From Polytrichum commune (lineage: Eukaryota > Streptophyta > Polytrichopsida > Polytrichales > Polytrichaceae): 64,000 nucleotides of DNA. A program made the position numbers and the translations under genes. The stretch spans positions 50,806,440 through 50,870,439 of the forward strand of contig OX485807.1 of assembly GCA_950295325.1 (NCBI GenBank), in the 5' to 3' direction. The notes beneath the pieces were generated by a model. The model was not told the DNA's origin. It was given only the letters and a program-made list of their open reading frames with translations, and did no database searches. This document shows, piece after piece, positions 39,483 through 63,875 of the stretch (positions are counted from its first letter, which is position 1; each line of letters begins with the position of its first letter).

Positions 39483-42400
39483 ATGGCGAGTGAGGCTAGT
39501 TGCTCCCACCATTCACCTATGACGATGGAAGCCACAAGGGAGAGTAAGATCTAGTTTGAACCGAGGCGTTTTGACTTGTTTAGAAATTTCTCTGTGTGGC
39601 ATATTAGTTTATCGTATGTCGATAGAGGAGGTTTTGATAACAAATATTATAGGTTAGAAAGTAAGACATTGCGGAGATTTGTACCAACCAATCACCTTGT
39701 TGATGTGCAGATAACTTTGAAAAGTACGATGTTTTTTTAAGCCATCGAGGCCCAGACACAAAGACAAGGTTTGTGGGCTTTTTGTATGAGGACCTCAAAA
39801 GACAAGGGTTGCAACCATACCTAGATTGCAAATCTATTCGTATTGGTGAAGAGTGTTGGAATTCTATCAAGGATGGAATCAAGAAAACTCCGATAGTTGT
39901 GGTGGTCTTTTCAGAGAGATATGCAGAGTCCGAGTGGTGTTTGAAGGAACTACATGTCATGTTGAAGGGTCATCCACGCAAGGAGATTCTTCCAGTATTC
40001 TACAATGTGACACCTTGGGATTTGCGTAATCCAGAAAGAGGTCAATTTAAAGATGGATTCGAGAAGTTGAAAAAGAAATTCAACTCAAACCTCATTGAAC
40101 AATGGAAAGCAGATTTGGAAAAAGCTTCTAAACTTATGGGTTGGGAGCACTCCGATAAATCAACAAGGTACTTTATATCCATAATATATCGTGTTGTGAA
40201 ATGGTCTAGATGGTTAAACTACATCATTCTTGACATGAGACCTAGAATGTTATCGTATGTGCATGGATTGTGTTATTAGAAGTTTTAGATGTTAACTCTA
40301 CATTATTCTTATTCCAAACTAAATTTTATTATAATTGGTTGTTTGTAGAAGCTTGGAAGTGGAATTGGTGGCAAAGGTTGTCAAAAGAGTATTGGAATTG
40401 GCGAACAAGTCATTGCCTTTGGATGTGGGTGAACATGTGGTTGGTCTAAAAGAAGTTGCCGACGAGTTGATTCAATGCCAAGTCTTCGAGAAGGGAGTTT
40501 CTGCGTTGGGTTTGTGGGGAATGGGCGGAATCGGAAAGTCGACTTTGGCAAAAGAGTTATATAACCAATTGTGCAAAAGATTCGAAGCAAGTTGTTATGT
40601 TGAGGATGTAACAGACAAAGTAATGCAAGGTCATGGAGTGGTGGAGATTCAAAAGCGGTTGTTGAAGGATCTTTGTATAAATCCGATCGATAATGATAAC
40701 AAATCGGAGTTGAAACCTATTCTTGAAGAAAGGCTAAGCAAGAAAAGAATTGTTGTGGTCTTGGATGATGTTTCTAATGTTGAGATGTTGAATTACATGA
40801 TGACACGCAAGATGTTAAAAAAAGGTAGCGTATGCATTGTGACATCACGCGACATGCGTGTGTTTGAAGCTTCGAACATATTTGAACTCAACAAGCGAGA
40901 GGTTTATGTTCATGAGGTCAAAATGTTGAACAATGAAGATTCGAAACGTGTGTTTATATCTTTTGCCTTTGCAAGGGATTGTGAAGTGAGACCTAAATAT
41001 GAAGCATTGGCGACAAAGATCAGTAAGCTATGTTGTGGAGTTCCATTGGCGTTGAAAGTTTTTGGAGCTCTCTTGAGGGGTGAGGTGAATCTGCATGTGT
41101 GGAAGGATGTAAAGAGGAAGTTGAAGTCCGGTGGGATTTTGGATGATAAGAATATCTTGAAGTGTCTTCGAATTAGCTATGATTCTCTTGAAGAAAAAGA
41201 GAAAAATATATTTTTGGATATTGCATGTGCTTTACTTGGAGAGTTAGAGGATATGGGTATATGCATTTGGAGATCACAAGAATGGGAGCCTAGCTTGGGC
41301 ATCCGGAATCTTAAAAAGAAGGCACTCATTTCAGTGAGTTTAGAAGGTGCCTTTATAATGCATGACCACTTAAGGGACATGGGACGCGAAATTGAAAGAG
41401 TTGAAGCAGGGGATAATACACGCCGCTTATGGATGCCTAAGTCCTTATCATTATTGGAGGAGAGAAAGGTACACATTTTCAATGCATAAGGCTTTTGATT
41501 AAATATGAGCCATGGATTATTGACAACTCAATATTTGAACAACCAAATATATGAGCTTGATTGTGAAACTATCTAACATCATTGGTTTTAAGCCATTGGA
41601 ATCTATTTAACTTGACAAACACTTTATAATCTTCATGACCTCTTTTAAGCTGAAAAACCAAAGACAACGCCAGACAAAGGTTGGCGTGAATCCAACATAA
41701 TTGATGGATGCTTCATCTTTGACCTAGGGGGTGGACTCTTCGTACCATGTACAATCTAACGTGAGTGTAAGAAGAGTTATTATTTGAGGCATTATCGTAC
41801 GTACATGGTATACATATGGGAGAGGTTTCATTTATCTTTGGTGTGTACATTTGAAAAAGCTAATATCAATAAATTTGAAGTGAAGGTAGATGTACAAAAG
41901 GGGGCCCTAAGGTTTAGAGATTTTTTTGGAGAATAGATGTGTTATTTTTATTCATTTCACATTTTCATTTATTGTTGTCATATGGTAATTGTCCTCAATA
42001 ATTACCATGTCCATTCTTGTTAAGATTTGCATTTGGATTCTAAGTTTTACAAATTGAAGGCTCTTGGAGAGCTCATGGGCTCCCTTGAATTTTGCTCTCT
42101 GGATTGTGAGTAAATTATTGTGTTGAGTTACATGCTATGCATGAAAAAATGTTCAGTGACTTTCTCATTGGAAATCGAAAGTGGACTTTATATGTGATAA
42201 GGTCCTATTATGTTAATGATTTCTATATTGTATATATAGTGGAGGCATTTATAACATTAAATTCAAAAGCTTGGTATAAATACACGAGTCCATTTTCTAG
42301 CATGCCAATAGTATGTATACATTTATTTTTCTTTATAAACTTGTTGTATATAAGGGGTTTAATATCATAGTGACCCACGTACGTCATTTAGGTTTCAATT

Positions 42401-44484
42401 AAGAGTCCACATGCCGGGATCTTTGATTATAGCCGCAAGCTCATATGTGAACCATAAACGGCTTTATAGAGCATGGTTATTGGACAAGTGTTATTGCATC
42501 TTGTCAAAGGTAGTCCCTTTTGGTGAAAGCCAAAAAACAATATAGGCCCATATGAAGATTAAAACCTTGGCCTAAACGTGGATCCATTTGTGTTGTGAAA
42601 GGGGGGGATCTACCTGGATCTTAGAAATGAAGTTGAACTTCCAATGCAAGGAAATTGATGGTATTGGTATATTAGAGTTAAATTATACATATTAATAGTG
42701 ATTTATATTTATCTAAGCTTGGTGCTAGATAGAATAATTATTTAACCTCAAACTAATATACATGTGACATGGATGGTTGTGTGCAGGCATTGCCTCATTC
42801 TCTTCAAACTTTGGTTATCACGCATATAAAACCACACATGAACCTTGCCCTTTCCGACATGAAGGAATTACGAATATTGATATGTGATGGCACCGTCAAT
42901 TTGATTGCAATACCACAAAATTTGCGTGGGCTCTATTATTCCGAAGAGAGTTCTTGGGGACAGTATATTCAAGTAGTACCCAAAAATAATCAATTGGCAT
43001 TTTTGAATCGGTCGGGCGTTAAACGTACATATGACTTTGAAAGTTTTTTTAATGAAAAGGCCATATCAGGTTTTACTGCAAAGCATTACAACTTGCGATA
43101 CTTGGAACTTCGTTGGTGTTATTCATTACACTCTTGCCCATGTGTGGGTGATTTATTTGCCTTGGAGGAACTTTCTTTTGACTGGTGTGTGAACCTTGAA
43201 GAGTTGCCCAACCTACAACAACTCGCACGCTTACGGAAGTTGAACATTCGTTGTGGTGATTCAATCGTAGCGGTGCCGGGGTTAGACAACTTAGTGGCCT
43301 TGGAGGAACTTTCTATTGACTTTTGTTCGAAGCTTGAAGAGTTGCCCAACCTACAACAACTCACGTGTTTACGGAAATTGAACATTTGTTGGTGTGGTGC
43401 AATCGTAGCGGTGCCGGGGTTTGGCAACTTAGTGACCTTGGAGAATCTTTCTTTTGACTCTTGTTCGAAGCTTAAAGAGTTGCCCAACCTACAACAACTC
43501 ACGCGGTTAAGGAAATTGAACATTGAAAGTTGTGCTTCAATCGTAGCGGTGCCGGGGTTAGGCAACTTAGTGGCCTTGGAGGAGTTTATAGCCTCAGAGT
43601 GCCATAGCCTTGTTGCGTTGCCGGACATGCACAAGCTGACAAACTTACAATTATTGGATTCGAGTGATTGCTCTTCACTTAAAGGGGTTCCAGGCTTATG
43701 TGAATTGATAGCTTTGCAAACATTATTTATTGATCATCAAGCAGTACAAGCTGGCTTTAATCCTCACAAGTTGAACAAATTAGTCACCCTAAGTGTGTGT
43801 GATTGGAGTGCATCACCAGCTTTTACTGATGTGGTGAGTTTGGAACATCTATTTATATATGGGTCGGGGGAGGGCATTGAAATGATGCCCAATCTCCTGA
43901 ATCTAACAAGATTACAAAGGGTAAGGGTTTGGAACTGCAAGTTTAAGGATGTGTCATGTTTGGGCAACTTGATTTCCTTACGAAGTTTATCAATATCCAA
44001 TTGCCATAGCTTGGAGACATTCCCTGATATGCTCAAGTTGACAAGATTGAAAAAATTGAGAATCAAATGCTGCCGAAATATTATGCTCTGGGCAGGGGTG
44101 AGCATATCGAAGTCCTTGGACACTCTTTGGGTCGACCGACCTCGAATTGGAACTGGAATGGCGCTACACACTTTGAGACTTGCTAGACTTTGGCCATGGA
44201 GATGTAGAGAGCTACCAGATCTGAGTTTGTTCCCGGAATTGAAAGAGTTGACTATTTATGATTGTCCGAGTTTGGAGAGGTTGATCAGCACTATGCCCAT
44301 GACTGCGTTGGAACGTCTCGACATAGACCATTGCAAAGCATTGCAAGAAGTGCCCGATTTGAGTCAGTGTAAACTTTTGAGTCACTTCAAGATTTGGTAC
44401 TGTGGGAACATATGTTTCACTACAGATGACATTATGAAGCTAGAAGCAATGTGTCCTGGGCTGAAAATAGACTTCCGCTCCTAG
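39483..44484 (+). CDS. TIR-NB-ARC-LRR immune receptor (TNL)
   Basis: Intracellular receptor of the plant NLR class; TIR domains of this class cleave NAD+ to start defence signalling. Exons are 39483-39543, 39711-40167, 40349-41468 and 42787-44484, with phases agreeing (about 1111 aa). The start is the first ATG of exon 1 (MASEASCSHH). TIR motifs are YDVFLSHRGPDTK (residues 26-38), SIRIGEE and SEWCLKEL, with the conserved Glu at about 100. NB-ARC motifs are GLWGMGGIGKSTLAK (P-loop, Lys about 236), RIVVVLDDVS, VCIVTSRD, CGVPLALKVFG, FLDIACALLG and IMHDHLRDMG (MHD at 510-512). LRRs fill exon 4 and include three near-identical 46-residue modules. All key residues are present and no stop interrupts, so it is probably functional. 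A small exon in the 1.3-kb intron 3 cannot be excluded. The partner or effector is unknown. Confidence 0.93.
43160..43614 (+). repeat. 138-bp intragenic LRR modules (three copies)
   Basis: GAGTTGCCCAACCTACAACA starts at 43201, 43339 and 43477, exactly 138 bp apart. Each unit encodes two LRRs: ELPNLQQLxxLRKLNI and then IVAVPGxxNLVxLExLSxD. A fourth, diverged unit begins near 43615. The differences cluster at the solvent-exposed positions after LRKLNI and LSxD. Confidence 0.9.
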
Positions 44485-55370: not shown

Positions 55371-56209
55371 TGGCTTATATTTCATGGAGGCTACCGCACT
55401 TCGTCACTCTAGAGAATTTAGTTGGTTTGACACCATTGTGTTTACTTTTAGTTCCATAAGCTTTTAGTTCCATAGATCCATAAGCTTTTTGGCTTTCTGG
55501 ACTTTAAAATCGATTTCATTTCATTTCATTTCATTTCATTTCATTTCATTTCATTTCATTTCATTTCATTTCATTTCATTTCATTTCATTTCATGCACGT
55601 TCCCTCGTTCTCAGGGAGTTCCCCAAAGTTCCCTTCGCGTTCCCCAGGAGTTGTTCCCTTCGACAACTTCGTCTTCCCCAAGGTGCAATCTTCGTCGTGC
55701 TCTTCGTGCTCCCAGTCACTCATCCTGTTCATCGTCGTGCTCACTCTCTTGATCTTCGTGCTCGTCTTTCTCATCCTCTAGTCGTCGTGCTTGTCCTCCT
55801 TTCGGTGTATTAAAATTCCGGTTCTGGTTGTGGCTCCGGTTTTGGTTTTGGTGGAGTCCATCGTAGGCGTGTTGAGTTCTCCTCCGGGAGGGATGGAGCA
55901 AAGTAAATGGAGGTTTGGGGATGTGAAAAGAAGAAGAAGAAGAAGAAACTTATATACTAGCTTGTAAAAAATTTATGCTTGCGATCGAACCTGCTCTGAT
56001 CTTCAAAACTGTGTTGCACTTGAGTCATCAAGCTAAGGGTTAACCCTTGGGAGGGCAATTTCTTCAGCTATGGTGGAAGCCTCTAAAATGTGTGCCCACA
56101 GCAATGCTGACTCGGAAACCCATTTTTAGCGATGAAGGAGGTGAGGGCGACCAAGGATTTGGAATTTTCTGCAGGGTAGCCCGCCTCCACGTCAGTATTA
56201 ATGCAACAA
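55371..56209 (+). other. 5' flank and probable leader of the glycosyltransferase gene
   Basis: It holds the (ATTTC)n run, a C/T-rich stretch at 55595-55800, (GAA)n at 55927-55947 and moderately GC-rich text up to the ATG at 56210. No certain TATA element was chosen. Overlapping frames on both strands at 55489-55901 are low-complexity. Confidence 0.4.
55513..55594 (+). repeat. ATTTC pentanucleotide microsatellite
   Basis: About 16 perfect ATTTC units, 616-697 bp before the glycosyltransferase ATG. Confidence 0.97.
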
Positions 56210-59200
56210 ATGGCGGACGCCAACAAATGGAGGAAGCTGACCGGAGCCGATCGTGCAGCGGGTCGCCGGAGCATGAGGTCATGGCTCTTCATAATCGAAG
56301 TTGGTGAGTTCTGAGATTTACCAAAAAGTATCATGTGTAGGTGATTTGTACAATGTAGTAAACATTTAGATAAAAAATGTTGTATACTGAATCGAGTAAT
56401 GCATTATCATTCCAAGATGCCCGTTACTGTGCATCAAAAATCCTACAGAAGTTCACTTCAATCGTCTCAGGGAGTCAGAAATTCTAACGAGTCTTAAATC
56501 CAGTTAATTTATAAGAAGAAGAAGAAAGTGAAGAAGTTCACCTCCTTTATTAGACTCTCTATATCCTCCTCCCATTGTATACTACTTTGCACTGGTGTAC
56601 AGACCTTAACAGAGGATTTAGACAATTTCTTAAAGGAATGAGACCTCCTCAATCTGACGAATATTTTCTTGGATACTTCATTTGAATTCGCTTTTTTACT
56701 CTCTCTTTCACAGTTTGAATGTATGAGATTATCTTGGTCTGCATTGTTTCCCAATCATTGGTTTCTCAAATGAATCAAACTTTTGGCTTTCCTACTTCAA
56801 GGGTTTATCTTATCTCTCCTGTTTTACTTGTGTCGAAATTGAGGTCCTTGTACACATGCTATACAACATTTCCCTTGAGTCTTTCTCTCCAGATCATTTG
56901 CAGCAACTAAATGTAACTCCAAAAGCTTTGGATTGACTACCTCTGTCGATTTTTTAATTTTATGGTTTACTACCGTTATCCGCTAGTGTTGATGTTTGAA
57001 CATTGATACTTAAAAGGATATGTTTCTCAATCACATGCGTGGTCGAACAATTCACATAGAACTATCAAAAGATCACAGAAGGACTCCAGAATCCTATTAA
57101 CACTTCTGTATGACGTTAACTTTCAAATATTGTCATTCAAAGGCTACATCGGTACTTTTAGGTTGTATGAAGTAGTTCTGTCATACGTTCGAACAGGAAG
57201 ACATGTATCATCTTTAGGGCATTTTAAAACTTAACCGTCTGTTCTGACTTTGCAGGGTTAGGAGTGGCAATCTTCTTGGTTATGCTTGCCTTATGGTGGA
57301 CTCTGGAGACCTTGGAAGAGGATGAATTTGCACAAGGAAAAATTGAACGTGTAAGCAGACAGATGGAATTGGAAGTAGATGAGATTGTGTGCGACAGACA
57401 TTTGTATCCACCACCTTGGGAGCTTCGGACTGATCAGGTCACAATTCTTGTGAACGGTTTCGCAGAAGCTCGAATACCATTGCTGCAAGCAAGTGTGAAG
57501 ACATATTCATCATCCTCAGTAGTGAATGCTATATTTGTGCTCTGGGGCAATACATCCACACCTGACTCTCTACTTCTGGCAGCTAAGTTTGAAAGCATCG
57601 GTGCACCGATCTATGTTGTGAGGCAGAAAACTAAAAGCCTCAACGATCGGTTCCTTCCTCGAGATTACATCAAAACAAAAGCTGTCATGATTTGTGATGA
57701 TGACATCACCATTGATGCCAGCAGCCTTCAATTTGCACTGCAGGTATTTTTCAAGCCACCGGTTAAAGAATGTTGTTGCTCTTCTGCCTCCCCTATTGTC
57801 AGTTTGGGTTATGTTGCAAGTTAGACCGGTGTTAATCCAACACACCCAAAATGTGGACACCTACATACAAGTGGTCTATGATTAGGCGTGGATCTATGAA
57901 TGGACATCATAAAAGACATGTGCTCAAAGGAGAATGGAGTACTTGCTCAAAATATGTTAAGCATTCTAGGTTCAACAATCAACAGAATGGATAACCCTAT
58001 ATGAGAACTTCATGAGCACACAAATCTTCACTATGATAATGCAAAAGATTGGGGGGACTCCAAAAATTATGAGGAAATGGCTATGGGCATGATTTAGAAT
58101 TTGCTAATTATCTTGCGTAGCCATTGGATTTGCTAATCATTTTGTGTTTCATATCCTACGAGAAGTTGGCACCGAGAGAAAAATGTCTGTTTAAGGGATG
58201 CTTACCCTATGAATTAGTTTAACATCACATCTTCACTGGGGTTGATCTTAGATTTTTTCTTTTCTTGTCATGATGTTAGACATGAAAATTGTAGAGGGCT
58301 GTTGGGATTGGATGCAGGTGTGGAGGGAGAATCAACAAAGGATTGTTGGGTTTTTTCCACGTGCCCATTCGTACCAGCTGGACAGTCATTCCTGGATTTA
58401 TACCAAGCATCAGCACAAGTATTCCATCATGTTGACAAAGATCATGATTCTTGCCACTGACTATCTTTATCGCTACACCTGTGAAATGCCAACAGGAATT
58501 CGGGAATATGTTGATAAAGGAATGAACTGTGAGGACATAGCGATGAATTTCCTTGTCTCCAACTTCAGGTGTGTGCCTTCATGATTCTCTCCTTCTATGT
58601 CTTCCGTTCTCTTATGTTCTCCATGTTCATCTTCTCCAATTCAAGGCAGGCAACACAATAAAATATTAAAACTGGCCTTCGACTTCCACTTTCAATAGAC
58701 AACATTGTGAGTGACAAGGCTGGTGCGATCACGTGTGACCTGCAAATAATTGCACTGAGAAATGACACAAGGTAGAAGAGCCTATTATGGTTAGTTCCAG
58801 GAGGTTTGGCCTCTTCTGATGTGCGATAAATCCAGGAAAAAAACCCCAGTTGATTTGGAAATCTTGTATATCCAGTCCAATAAGAATGAGACATAGGTGA
58901 CTAAACCTCAACCTCAATTTGTGAAGAATTTTCAAAGAGCGTATATGCGATCTTCTTAAGTGCCTACATATATCTGCGCTTATGTGCGAGCTTATGTGTG
59001 CTAAAGTGGTTAGTGTTGAGCGGTTGTTGAGCATTGACTTTTTGGCTAAACCAACCAATGAACCGTCATTTTAATCCTCAGAATGATACTAGAAGTGCTT
59101 GTAGAAGGCTGTTGTTTGCATAAGACATGTCTACCTTAGGCCTGTTACCATTCATTCTTTTTGGTATGCTCATAACCGACAGCTATTTATGTTGAAAAAT

Positions 59201-62200
59201 TGTTGCAGTGGCCTTGGTCCTTTGCTTGTGGAGGGTCAACCCCGAGACTGGGGAGATACAAGAAATTCAGAGGAAGTAATGACAAACATGGGCCTTAGTG
59301 CACGTATGGACCATAGAAAAGACAGGGGGGACTGCATCATTGAGTTTCAGAAATTATGGAATGGCATGGAGCTTCACTTTAGTTATTCTAAAGCAATCTC
59401 TAATGTGGACGAACAGGTTGGTTTTTTTCCGTTCACTAACCACATTTTATTCACTTAATCATTCTCTGGAGCACGGTGCTGCCTTTCTCAAAACTCTTGG
59501 GTTAACCTCATGTGTTTTGTTCTGTGTTCTGCTCCTGCAGGTAAATTGTGAGAAGTTTGGGCACTTGATTGACTGTGACAAGCAAGCAATTTCAGAGCGG
59601 GATGTTCGAAGACTTGTTGGACATAATCTGGTGAAACGGACACATCGGTTTGCATATGCCACACTGTTACAGGCAAAGCACATGTATTATTCGGCTCTTG
59701 TGTTGGCCCAATCTCTTCGTAATACAGGGACTGTCCATGACCTGGTCCTACTGCTCGATGCAGATTGCGGATTCACCAAAGACAATGAAACCTTGTCCGA
59801 ACATTTTGATGTGGTGAAAGAAGTTGGCAAATCTAGCCATCGTTGGAGCTCTCGGATTTTTGGCAAATTGAACGTGTGGAACCTCAAGGAGTATGATCGG
59901 GTGGTGTATATTGATTTGAACATTCTTGTCTTGTCCAACTTGGACCATTTATTTAACCTCCCAGAGCCAGCAGCTGTTCCACAAGTTAATTTCCCTGAAC
60001 AATTCAACACAGGCTTGGTTGTTCTGCAACCCTCAAATGCAACGTACACAGATCTTCTGAATTGGGTGGAAGATACTTTTGATTCAGTGGAGTTAACTGA
60101 AGATGAGCTCTTGAATGACTTTTTTAGTGGCTGGTTTCAAATGCCAACTGAGCATCGCCTCCCTATGTATTTGAACATGCCATTACACCTAGTGGCCTCA
60201 GCGCCATTTCTAGGTTTAAATGAGAGCTCAATACAAGAGGTGACCAGTCAAAATCAACCAGCTGCACTTCGATTCCAGAAACGGGACCTTACTTTCATGC
60301 TCAAACAAGGTGTACATAATTCTAATAATAGTGATGATATAATCAGCTTTCTGACTCGGAGGAAGTCTAGTGCCATCGCCAATGGTTGGTTTGCCATCTG
60401 GTTGGAACTACTGAATGCTATTAAGAGCAACAGGGATCAACCTTTGGATGATGACAAGGCATCTCATCTATCTTGGAGACCTAGCAAGGTGAAGACACTA
60501 CTTTGGCCACCTAGGCGCCAGATGGTAGCTATCCATACGTATGCAAACTTGAATGCTCCGAGGCGACAAGCTTTTGCTACAGTCATCTGGTCCACTGAGC
60601 AACTTGTTGCTGTTGCAGGTAAGATAACAGCTTCATTTGTGTATAGGTATGCTTTTGTTAAAATTATTTTTCTAAACCCCAGCCAAGTTTGTGTCCTTGA
60701 TTGCTAAGTTAGCTGCTGGGATATGATCAAACTCCTAAGGGCTTGACTGTAGAGCTTGACCATTGAGAATTAAAATCTCTCATTGGTGGAAAAATGTCGA
60801 GACTGTCTCACTTCACTTTAAACTAGAGCTTGAGGACCTGGGACCATTGAATTCTAAAATCTCATTAGTGAGAATATGCCGAGACCGTCCCACTTCACTT
60901 TACACTAGAGCTTGAGGGCCTAAGGAACCAAAGAAGTTTGCATGGATATTAAAACCTACTTGGAGTCCTATATGGCACGCAGTGGATGATGTTTCATGGT
61001 CTCCTGGAATGTCCGTCAATCTCATCTCAAAGAGTGGGTCTAACACAAAACCGAGAGACCATGACTCTTCAAAATCTCCCAATCCTTGATTTATTATAAT
61101 TTGTTGTGTAGAAGGGCCCACATGCATAGGATGGTAATGAATAGCATTCGGTTGAGAGCCCGGTTGTGTATTTCTTTTGAACTACACTTGGAAGACCTGT
61201 GACCACACAAAATGCATTGTCAATTTTCCATGGTACAGCCTTTGGATGAGTTTCAAGGGTCCTCATGATTTCATGGTGACGGCCTGGGCCTTAGTGTAAA
61301 GTGGCCCAAAATTATCATCTTAGTTCTTTGCCGCAAGTGACACCTATTATAACTCTCAGTGATGGATGTGGGTGAACTCCTGATCCATGGTTTAATACAT
61401 ACTAATAATGTAAGACCTTCTAAACACATCAATGTCAATCATTTGTATGATTCAGTGACCATAGCTGATTTCATGTTTTGAATTTCCTGAGTATAGTTCA
61501 TGAAATTCAAGGATAATATGGCTGAAGTCGTTATATGTGTGAAACATATTCTGGAATGACTTCAAAAATGACCTTACACAAATTTGTGAATGATGGAACT
61601 GCAGGTTGGGCAACAACATACTCACAATGGCACCCATCATCACAGTATGAAACGCTTTTACTAGTGCACCCTTCCGTGGAGTGGAATTCATGGCAGCCTT
61701 ACAGGAGTCTGTTTCATACAGTAGTGGCTGTTGGAGAATTTGACCCAAAAATGTCCATCGACAACATGTCTGCAATGGTTGTGCATCTCTGGAATCAGAC
61801 GAACTATAACAAGTTAGTGTACGTAGATCCTAGCTCCATTTTCATAGATAGTTGTAATTTTCTTATGGACTTTGAACCTTTTGCTGCAACACCCAATCCT
61901 ACACTTCCAGATACATTTCTTTTGCAACTCATGGTTATCCAGCCAGATGCAAATAGATTTTCTGAGCTGGTCAGTAAGTTGTCCCTGCGTGGTGACACAA
62001 CTACAGTGCATTTGTTGCACTTTATGAACCAGCAGCTTAGTTATTGGTACCAATCGACCCCCAAGCATCGCATAGGAACCGTATTCAATTCCCGACTGGA
62101 TTTGCATAGGGGTCTCGAAGTGGATGAAAGGCCCTGGAAAATTTTGACATTTTACACTCACAACATACCTCATGATAGAAGCTCGGAGACTGCAAAAATT

Positions 62201-62278
62201 TGGGTAAAGATTGTCTGTAACATGCGGGACGCGGAAAGAACGGGCACATTGCTTGATCCCTTATGTGGTGTGCCTTAA
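56210..62278 (+). CDS. Multidomain glycosyltransferase: GT64 (EPC1-type) fused to two GT8-like domains
   Basis: Exons 56210-56303, 57256-57743, 58318-58568, 59209-59416, 59541-60618 and 61605-62278 join in phase (930 aa). The start ATG gives a basic N-tail (MADANKWRKL) and a membrane anchor at about 25-46, crossing the first splice, so a Golgi type II protein is likely. GT64, residues about 90-347: QVTILVNGF, ICDDDITID (DXD at 179-181), RIVGFFPRAHSY, KYSIMLTKIMIL, NCEDIAMNF, GDCIIEFQKLWNGM. GT8-like 1, about 380-560: FAYATLLQAKHMYYSALVLA, GKLNVWNLKEYDRVVYIDLN, FNTGLVVLQPS; the DXD position reads DLN. GT8-like 2, about 707-930: YNKLVYVDPSSIF (DPS), DTFLLQLMVIQP, RPWKILTFYTHN. Arabidopsis GT64 (EPC1/GMT1, GINT1) and GT8 (IPUT1) proteins act on GIPC sphingolipids, so a GIPC role is a guess. 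No stops interrupt any exon. Confidence 0.88.
57860..58205 (+). repeat. Dispersed repeat family A copy in glycosyltransferase intron 2
   Basis: GGCGTGGATCTATGAATGGA, AGACATGTGCTCAAAGGAGA, GCATTCTAGGTTCAACAATC, AAAATTATGAGGAAATGGCT, GAATTTGCTAATTATCTTG and GAGAAGTTGGCACCGAGAG follow the order of the copies at 1740 and 2120. Confidence 0.6.
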
Positions 62279-63739: not shown

Positions 63740-63773
63740 ACTGGAGACAATGATGATGATGAGGAAGATGACA

Positions 63774-63815
<42 letters not shown>

Positions 63816-63875
63816 TTGTCCTCTTCCTCATCATCATCATCATTGTGAACAATGATGATGATGAGGAAGATGATT
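63740..63875. repeat. GAT/ATC-rich microsatellite with inverted halves
   Basis: (GAT)n runs from about 63744 to 63813, then CTCTTCCTCATCATCATCAT at 63820-63842, then a GATGATGATGAGGAAGATGA block at 63855. The sense and antisense GAT tracts can pair. The serine/methionine-rich minus-strand frame here is a by-product. Confidence 0.85.

Follow-up and report, generated by a model that had tools for sequence, protein, structure and literature searches.

A moss gene predicted to join one GT64 glycosyltransferase domain to two degenerate GT8-like domains

Can a single moss gene encode a GT64 glycosyltransferase domain together with two GT8-like domains and, if so, do all of these domains act as enzymes? 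This question is raised by a locus in Polytrichum commune that resides in a 64-kb stretch of DNA (C5:50,806,440-50,870,439), which we call the window and whose own numbering is used for nucleotide positions below. The genome searched with it comprises 407.8 Mb in 64 contigs, among which seven large contigs of 42-78 Mb sum to about 406 Mb and an eighth has a length of 147 kb. A sequence-only reading of the window had proposed one spliced gene for a membrane-anchored protein of 930 residues, and had suggested from its domains that the product channels substrates or acts like a polymerase, perhaps in relation to GIPC. Elsewhere in the window (39704-44484, forward strand), TIR, NB-ARC (with a Roq1-like winged helix) and LRR frames occur in a row, as in a TIR-NBS-LRR immune-receptor-like gene.

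The six exons proposed for the gene are located exactly where they had been placed, on the forward strand between positions 56210 and 62278. All borders conform to GT-AG, and the joined frame of 2793 nucleotides specifies 930 amino acids and a single stop codon. Exon 1 (56210-56303; residues 1-31 plus one base) provides the start codon, the cytosolic tail and the start of the anchor, and another ATG in the same frame, at 56201, could serve instead and would lengthen the N-terminus by three residues. Exon 2 (57256-57743; residues 32-194) carries the remainder of the anchor (to about 57293), a stem and the first half of the GT64 domain, including its DDD motif (57696-57704; residues 179-181). 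The domain continues through exon 3 (58318-58568; residues 195-277 plus two bases), which contains the conserved NCEDIAMNF, and ends in exon 4 (59209-59416; to residue 347). The first GT8-like domain (GT8-1, about 59625-60299) is encoded by exon 5 (59541-60618; residues 348-706 plus one base), in which the second (GT8-2) may start near 60477. Exon 6 (61605-62278) carries GT8-2 to about 62200, the C-terminus at residue 930 and the stop codon. Simple repeats of TTTCA and GAT flank the gene (about 55515-55595 and 63740-63860).

To evaluate the reading frame, a codon score was derived from five coding stretches located elsewhere in the genome. Each of the six exons scores above zero in its predicted frame, and exons 2 through 6 score below zero in the five other frames, with exon 1 being too short to tell. 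Scores below zero were also obtained for the introns in all forward frames, a result that is partly circular because the same introns are in the background set. Within exons 5 and 6, 5 of 20 sub-blocks (each of 30 codons or fewer) score below zero. We reject a chance open reading frame, against which the codon scores and the Pfam and PDB matches described below all argue.

A single hydrophobic segment spans about residues 26-44, in agreement with the one membrane anchor that had been claimed. The Pfam search that the sequence-only reading had suggested for the joined protein matched both expected families above their cut-offs. PF09258 (GT64) aligns with residues 94-340 at an E-value of 1e-68 (231.7 bits versus a cut-off of 21.3), and PF01501 (GT8) aligns with residues 439-491 at an E-value of 3.3e-6 (27.3 bits versus a cut-off of 24.3), which is inside the region (residues 380-930) where a GT8 match had been anticipated. 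These are the only two Pfam families in the 930 residues, and the protein, which may function in the manner of an exostosin, does not have the GT47 plus GT64 content of one.

The GT64 domain matches animal exostosins (EXTL3 at 6.7e-34, EXT2 at 2e-31, EXT1 at 2.7e-27 and EXTL2 at 1.3e-19). Its DDD motif and the segment NCEDIAMNFLVS align with EXTL3, and a CEDIAMN-type segment is present at residue 265. The DDD motif is indeed intact as had been stated. The description of the domain as EPC1-type is unsupported, the domain being at about equal distance from both other GT64 genes found in the genome (29-30% identity to pieces of each). One of these genes, on C6, carries a GINT1_N domain (E 1.1e-85), and 74 of 247 positions of its GT64 domain are identical to those of the window. 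The other, on C2, was compared over one exon (42 of 143 positions identical), and we take its exons to resemble EPC1/GMT1. The window domain presumably resembles Arabidopsis At1g80290, an uncharacterised GT64, which we consider a lead. None of the PF01501 matches listed (at least 26 in the genome) is near the C6 or the C2 gene, and thus neither shows the fusion.

The GT64 family has been split into three groups, of which B and C were uncharacterised and A was without established function in the portion available of an earlier survey (Harholt 2012, PMC3342304). The functions of GMT1 and GINT1 were assigned after that survey, according to excerpts of a later paper (PMC9113257). Excerpts of another describe GT64 enzymes as retaining and Mn/Mg-dependent (PMC9178029).

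The two GT8-like domains that had been claimed were both recovered, by different routes. GT8-1 exceeds the Pfam cut-off, and a sequence comparison of exons 5 and 6 with glycogenin yields a match over GT8-1 at 2e-18. GT8-2 (residues 659-930), when searched alone, gave no Pfam match at E-values up to 1. Despite this absence, GT8-2 is a genuine GT8-like domain as judged from its likeness to other GT8 sequences and its predicted fold. In BLASTP comparisons, 27 of 108 positions are identical between GT8-2 and GT8-1, and GT8-2 matches 16 of 32 open reading frames from GT8 relatives at E-values of 0.01 or less. The Smith-Waterman score of the two domains is 129, and the highest score reached by 2000 shuffles is 65. 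GT8-1 matches 30 of the 32 relatives; the misses are L030, for which the long open reading frame taken lay in another frame, and L033.

AlphaFold2 models were generated for exon 5 (mean pLDDT 74, with much of the core above 90) and exon 6 (mean pLDDT 73). In Foldseek comparisons, the best PDB match of the exon 5 model is glycogenin-2 (E 1.2e-20) and that of the exon 6 model is glycogenin-1 (E 6e-11), making glycogenin the best solved-structure match of both domains. These models were built with GT8 relatives as the alignment, which favors a glycogenin-like fold, and the exons were folded separately, such that the GT8-2 model probably lacks its first strand.

If both domains adopt this fold, do they also retain the residues for catalysis? 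The reference for GT8-1 consisted of 24 relatives (23 bacterial and one from a viral contig, with 8 of the 32 retrieved left out), and that for GT8-2 of 23 relatives. At the DxD column, GT8-1 carries DLN (59913-59921; residues 472-474), in which N474 occupies the position of an aspartate present in 24/24 relatives. The DQ site reads ED (60099-60104; residues 534-535), where 23/24 relatives have D and 23/24 have Q. RFQKRDLTF (60270-60296; residues 591-599) aligns with H...KPW, whose residues are each present in 24/24 relatives, placing R591 at the histidine and L597-T598-F599 at KPW. The set of DxD, DQ and H...KPW expected of an active enzyme, as in glycogenin and GUX-type GT8 proteins, is absent from GT8-1, while K456, D472, N503 and G505 are retained. 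The placement of H and KPW depends on the alignment, since one with three other plant rows puts another histidine (GVHN, residue 259 of exon 5) in the metal-His column, with no KPW accompanying it. A predicted strand at residues 242-244 of exon 5 ends at R591, which favors the alignment with the 24 relatives.

Similar losses are evident in GT8-2. Its DPS (61826-61834; residues 781-783) is located at DxD, with S783 at the second aspartate of 23/23 relatives, and its RPW (62129-62137; residues 882-884) is located at KPW, with R882 at a lysine of 23/23. Other changes are L812 for N (22/23), Q814 for G (23/23) and T838 for Q (22/23), and the histidine of the relatives (23/23) falls in a gap. Residues D781, D837, P883 and W884 are retained. 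Given these motifs, both GT8-like domains are most likely catalytically degenerate and would be inactive.

The other GT8 genes recovered from the genome do not exhibit this pattern at DxD. A PF01501 profile search yielded at least 26 matches, which were grouped by position into 13 loci including the window. A D-x-D motif is present in 14 of the 14 other GT8 genes found, namely in one matched piece of each of the 12 remaining PF01501 loci and in two GUX-like genes from another search; the pattern also struck two C-terminal pieces (L062 and L071) outside the motif, and both were excluded from this count. The names GUX-like and IPUT1-like are putative assignments of our own. In the genome, the search detected the GT8-like pair only in the window. 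Among the GT8 loci, the IPUT1-like L017 (C1:56576500-56582000) encodes a GT8 domain and C-terminal hydrophobic segments in one 571-codon frame that is intron-free between them, and L074 (C2) and L077 (C6) have identical 57-residue pieces, as in a recent-looking duplicate.

In a phylogenetic tree, in which two rows are exons joined by eye, GT8-1 joins the GUX-like pair with a support of 90/78, which is not firm, and GT8-2 has a branch length of 6.06 that is too long to place. Glycogenin-like GT8 proteins from Myxococcales and other bacteria (L023-L032 and L039) match GT8-1 with a best E-value of 2e-25 versus 3.7e-11 for the best other GT8 gene of the moss genome, where the two values come from different search spaces. 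A search of viral contigs with a single GT8 protein revealed no relative, and one with a four-row alignment revealed 3 loci. A bacterial origin of the GT8 module is neither shown nor excluded by these comparisons.

From these data, we favor a model, to which we assign a probability of about 0.55, wherein the gene encodes a Golgi type II enzyme with one active GT64 domain and two GT8 domains that form a non-catalytic module. The protein would be a single-pass type II membrane glycosyltransferase, probably residing in the Golgi, and its GT64 domain would serve as the only working catalytic domain, acting as a metal-dependent, retaining sugar transferase. The tandem glycogenin-like GT8 pair is predicted to be folded yet catalytically degenerate. 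It may bind the acceptor glycan, position it for the GT64 site, or hold together a dimer or complex.

This model presumes that exon 4 is joined to exon 5, and intron 4 (59417-59540), which separates the GT64 part from the GT8 part, is the weakest link of the gene model. Its donor (CAG|GTTGGT) looks weak when judged by eye, and retention of the intron would lead to a stop after 13 extra residues, yielding a 360-amino-acid GT64-only protein. Thus, the fusion protein and the GT64-only protein may both be made. We regard as unlikely the more extreme case in which frequent retention, or a second promoter near exon 4, partitions the locus into a GT64-only protein and a GT8-GT8 protein. This arrangement would be consistent with the end of the GT64 match at residue 340 (about 59395), ahead of the exon 4 border at residue 347, and with the frame of exon 5, which extends upstream without a stop to 59283 and includes methionines as well as a hydrophobic segment (LGLTSCVLFCVLLLQ) immediately ahead of the exon. 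However, the intron is only 124 nucleotides long, is preceded by CAG and ends in TGCAG, its removal joins exons 4 and 5 in frame, and it scores as non-coding in all three forward frames, albeit with the intron itself in the score background. Even less probable is that the GT8 part is a passenger in the process of losing function. The loss of conserved residues from both GT8 domains and the very long branch of GT8-2 could be read in this manner, but the stretch from exon 5 onward comprises 583 codons without a stop, which argues against decay, and exons 5 and 6 retain codon scores above zero solely in the predicted frame.

The reverse possibility, that GT64 and GT8-1 are both active, with a metal-light GT8 domain, and add two sugars in turn as has been proposed for LARGE (GT8-GT49) or EXT1/2 (GT47-GT64), seems to us distinctly improbable. 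In its favor are the residues retained by GT8-1 and the mild nature of the D to N and D to E changes. Furthermore, 4ayl, a GT-A enzyme that needs no metal, came up in the structural comparisons of the exon 5 and exon 6 models, and given this match DLN alone is no proof of inactivity. Dual-glycosyltransferase fusions thought to make alternating polymers also exist, according to the part available of one account (PMC9178029). Nevertheless, the histidine and KPW are gone from GT8-1 in the alignment with the 24 relatives, and DxD is kept in all 14 other GT8 genes recovered from the genome. Substrate channelling or polymerase activity, as had been suggested, is not supported: it needs a working GT8 domain, but both domains lack residues kept in 24/24 (GT8-1) and 23/23 (GT8-2) aligned relatives. 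It is similarly a long shot that the ancestor of a GT64 clade in land plants already had a built-in GT8-GT8 module, with a metal-light GT8 domain that let one chain recognise and extend a glycan in two steps, and that flowering plants then lost this module. If true, this history would provide a plant counterpart of the LARGE and EXT polymerases with a GT64-GT8 pairing.

The proposed link to GIPC extends to the level of the families but not to this gene. GINT1 and GMT1/EPC1 share the GT64 domain with the window protein, and we know of no GT8 domain in either; GINT1 is marked by a GINT1_N domain, as is the C6 gene. A GINT1_N plus GT64 gene, a third GT64 gene and an IPUT1-like GT8 gene are present as separate genes, and therefore a GIPC role for the fusion is not implied. 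A GIPC-specific enzyme was rejected for its dependence on family-level reasoning; GT8-1 lies closer to the GUX-like GT8 genes than to the IPUT1-like one, weakly so at a support of 90/78, which is not firm.

The comparison with two-domain animal exostosins that had been drawn from the sequence is a fair one, in that one anchored chain carries a further GT-fold domain besides GT64. EXTL3 (GT47-GT64) shares this layout with the window protein. Its GT47 domain was judged by the authors of one study, in the text available, likely to have lost activity. The precedent is not clear-cut, as the same authors recorded GlcA transfer by their preparations and allow for some intrinsic activity (PMC9178029). 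With one active GT64 and two non-catalytic GT8 domains, the moss fusion would most likely resemble EXTL3 more closely than a polymerase made of two enzymes. The layouts differ in that the extra domain of exostosins is GT47 (GT-B) with GT64 located C-terminally, whereas the window protein has two GT8-like domains C-terminal to GT64.

The GT8 domain of LARGE is catalytic, unlike the degenerate GT8-like domains of the window. LARGE (GT8-GT49) resembles the window protein in the fusion of GT8 to another glycosyltransferase family, which is GT64 in the moss. To our knowledge, exostosins, chondroitin synthases and LARGE are all animal enzymes. Exostosins, chondroitin synthases (GT31-GT7) and LARGE are the tandem fusions named in the portion available of the study cited for EXTL3 (PMC9178029). 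Chlorovirus PBCV-1 A111/114R, likened here by the title of its report, places three glycosyltransferase functions on one chain (PMC7826918) and, unlike the moss gene, is viral. A GT64-GT8 fusion is absent from the matches listed (in some cases the best 20 of 22 or the best 20 of 261) in literature on fusions, on GT64 in early land plants, on single genes and on GIPC enzymes, as far as the text available for these papers extends.

The GT64-GT8-GT8 architecture may already be present, unremarked, in public proteomes. If our favored model of one active GT64 domain beside a non-catalytic GT8 pair is true, this gene would represent a further, independent case of a disabled glycosyltransferase domain adjacent to a live one, and would allow the role of such domains to be tested. 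The fusion is also an entry point to those plant GT64 genes whose function is not established.
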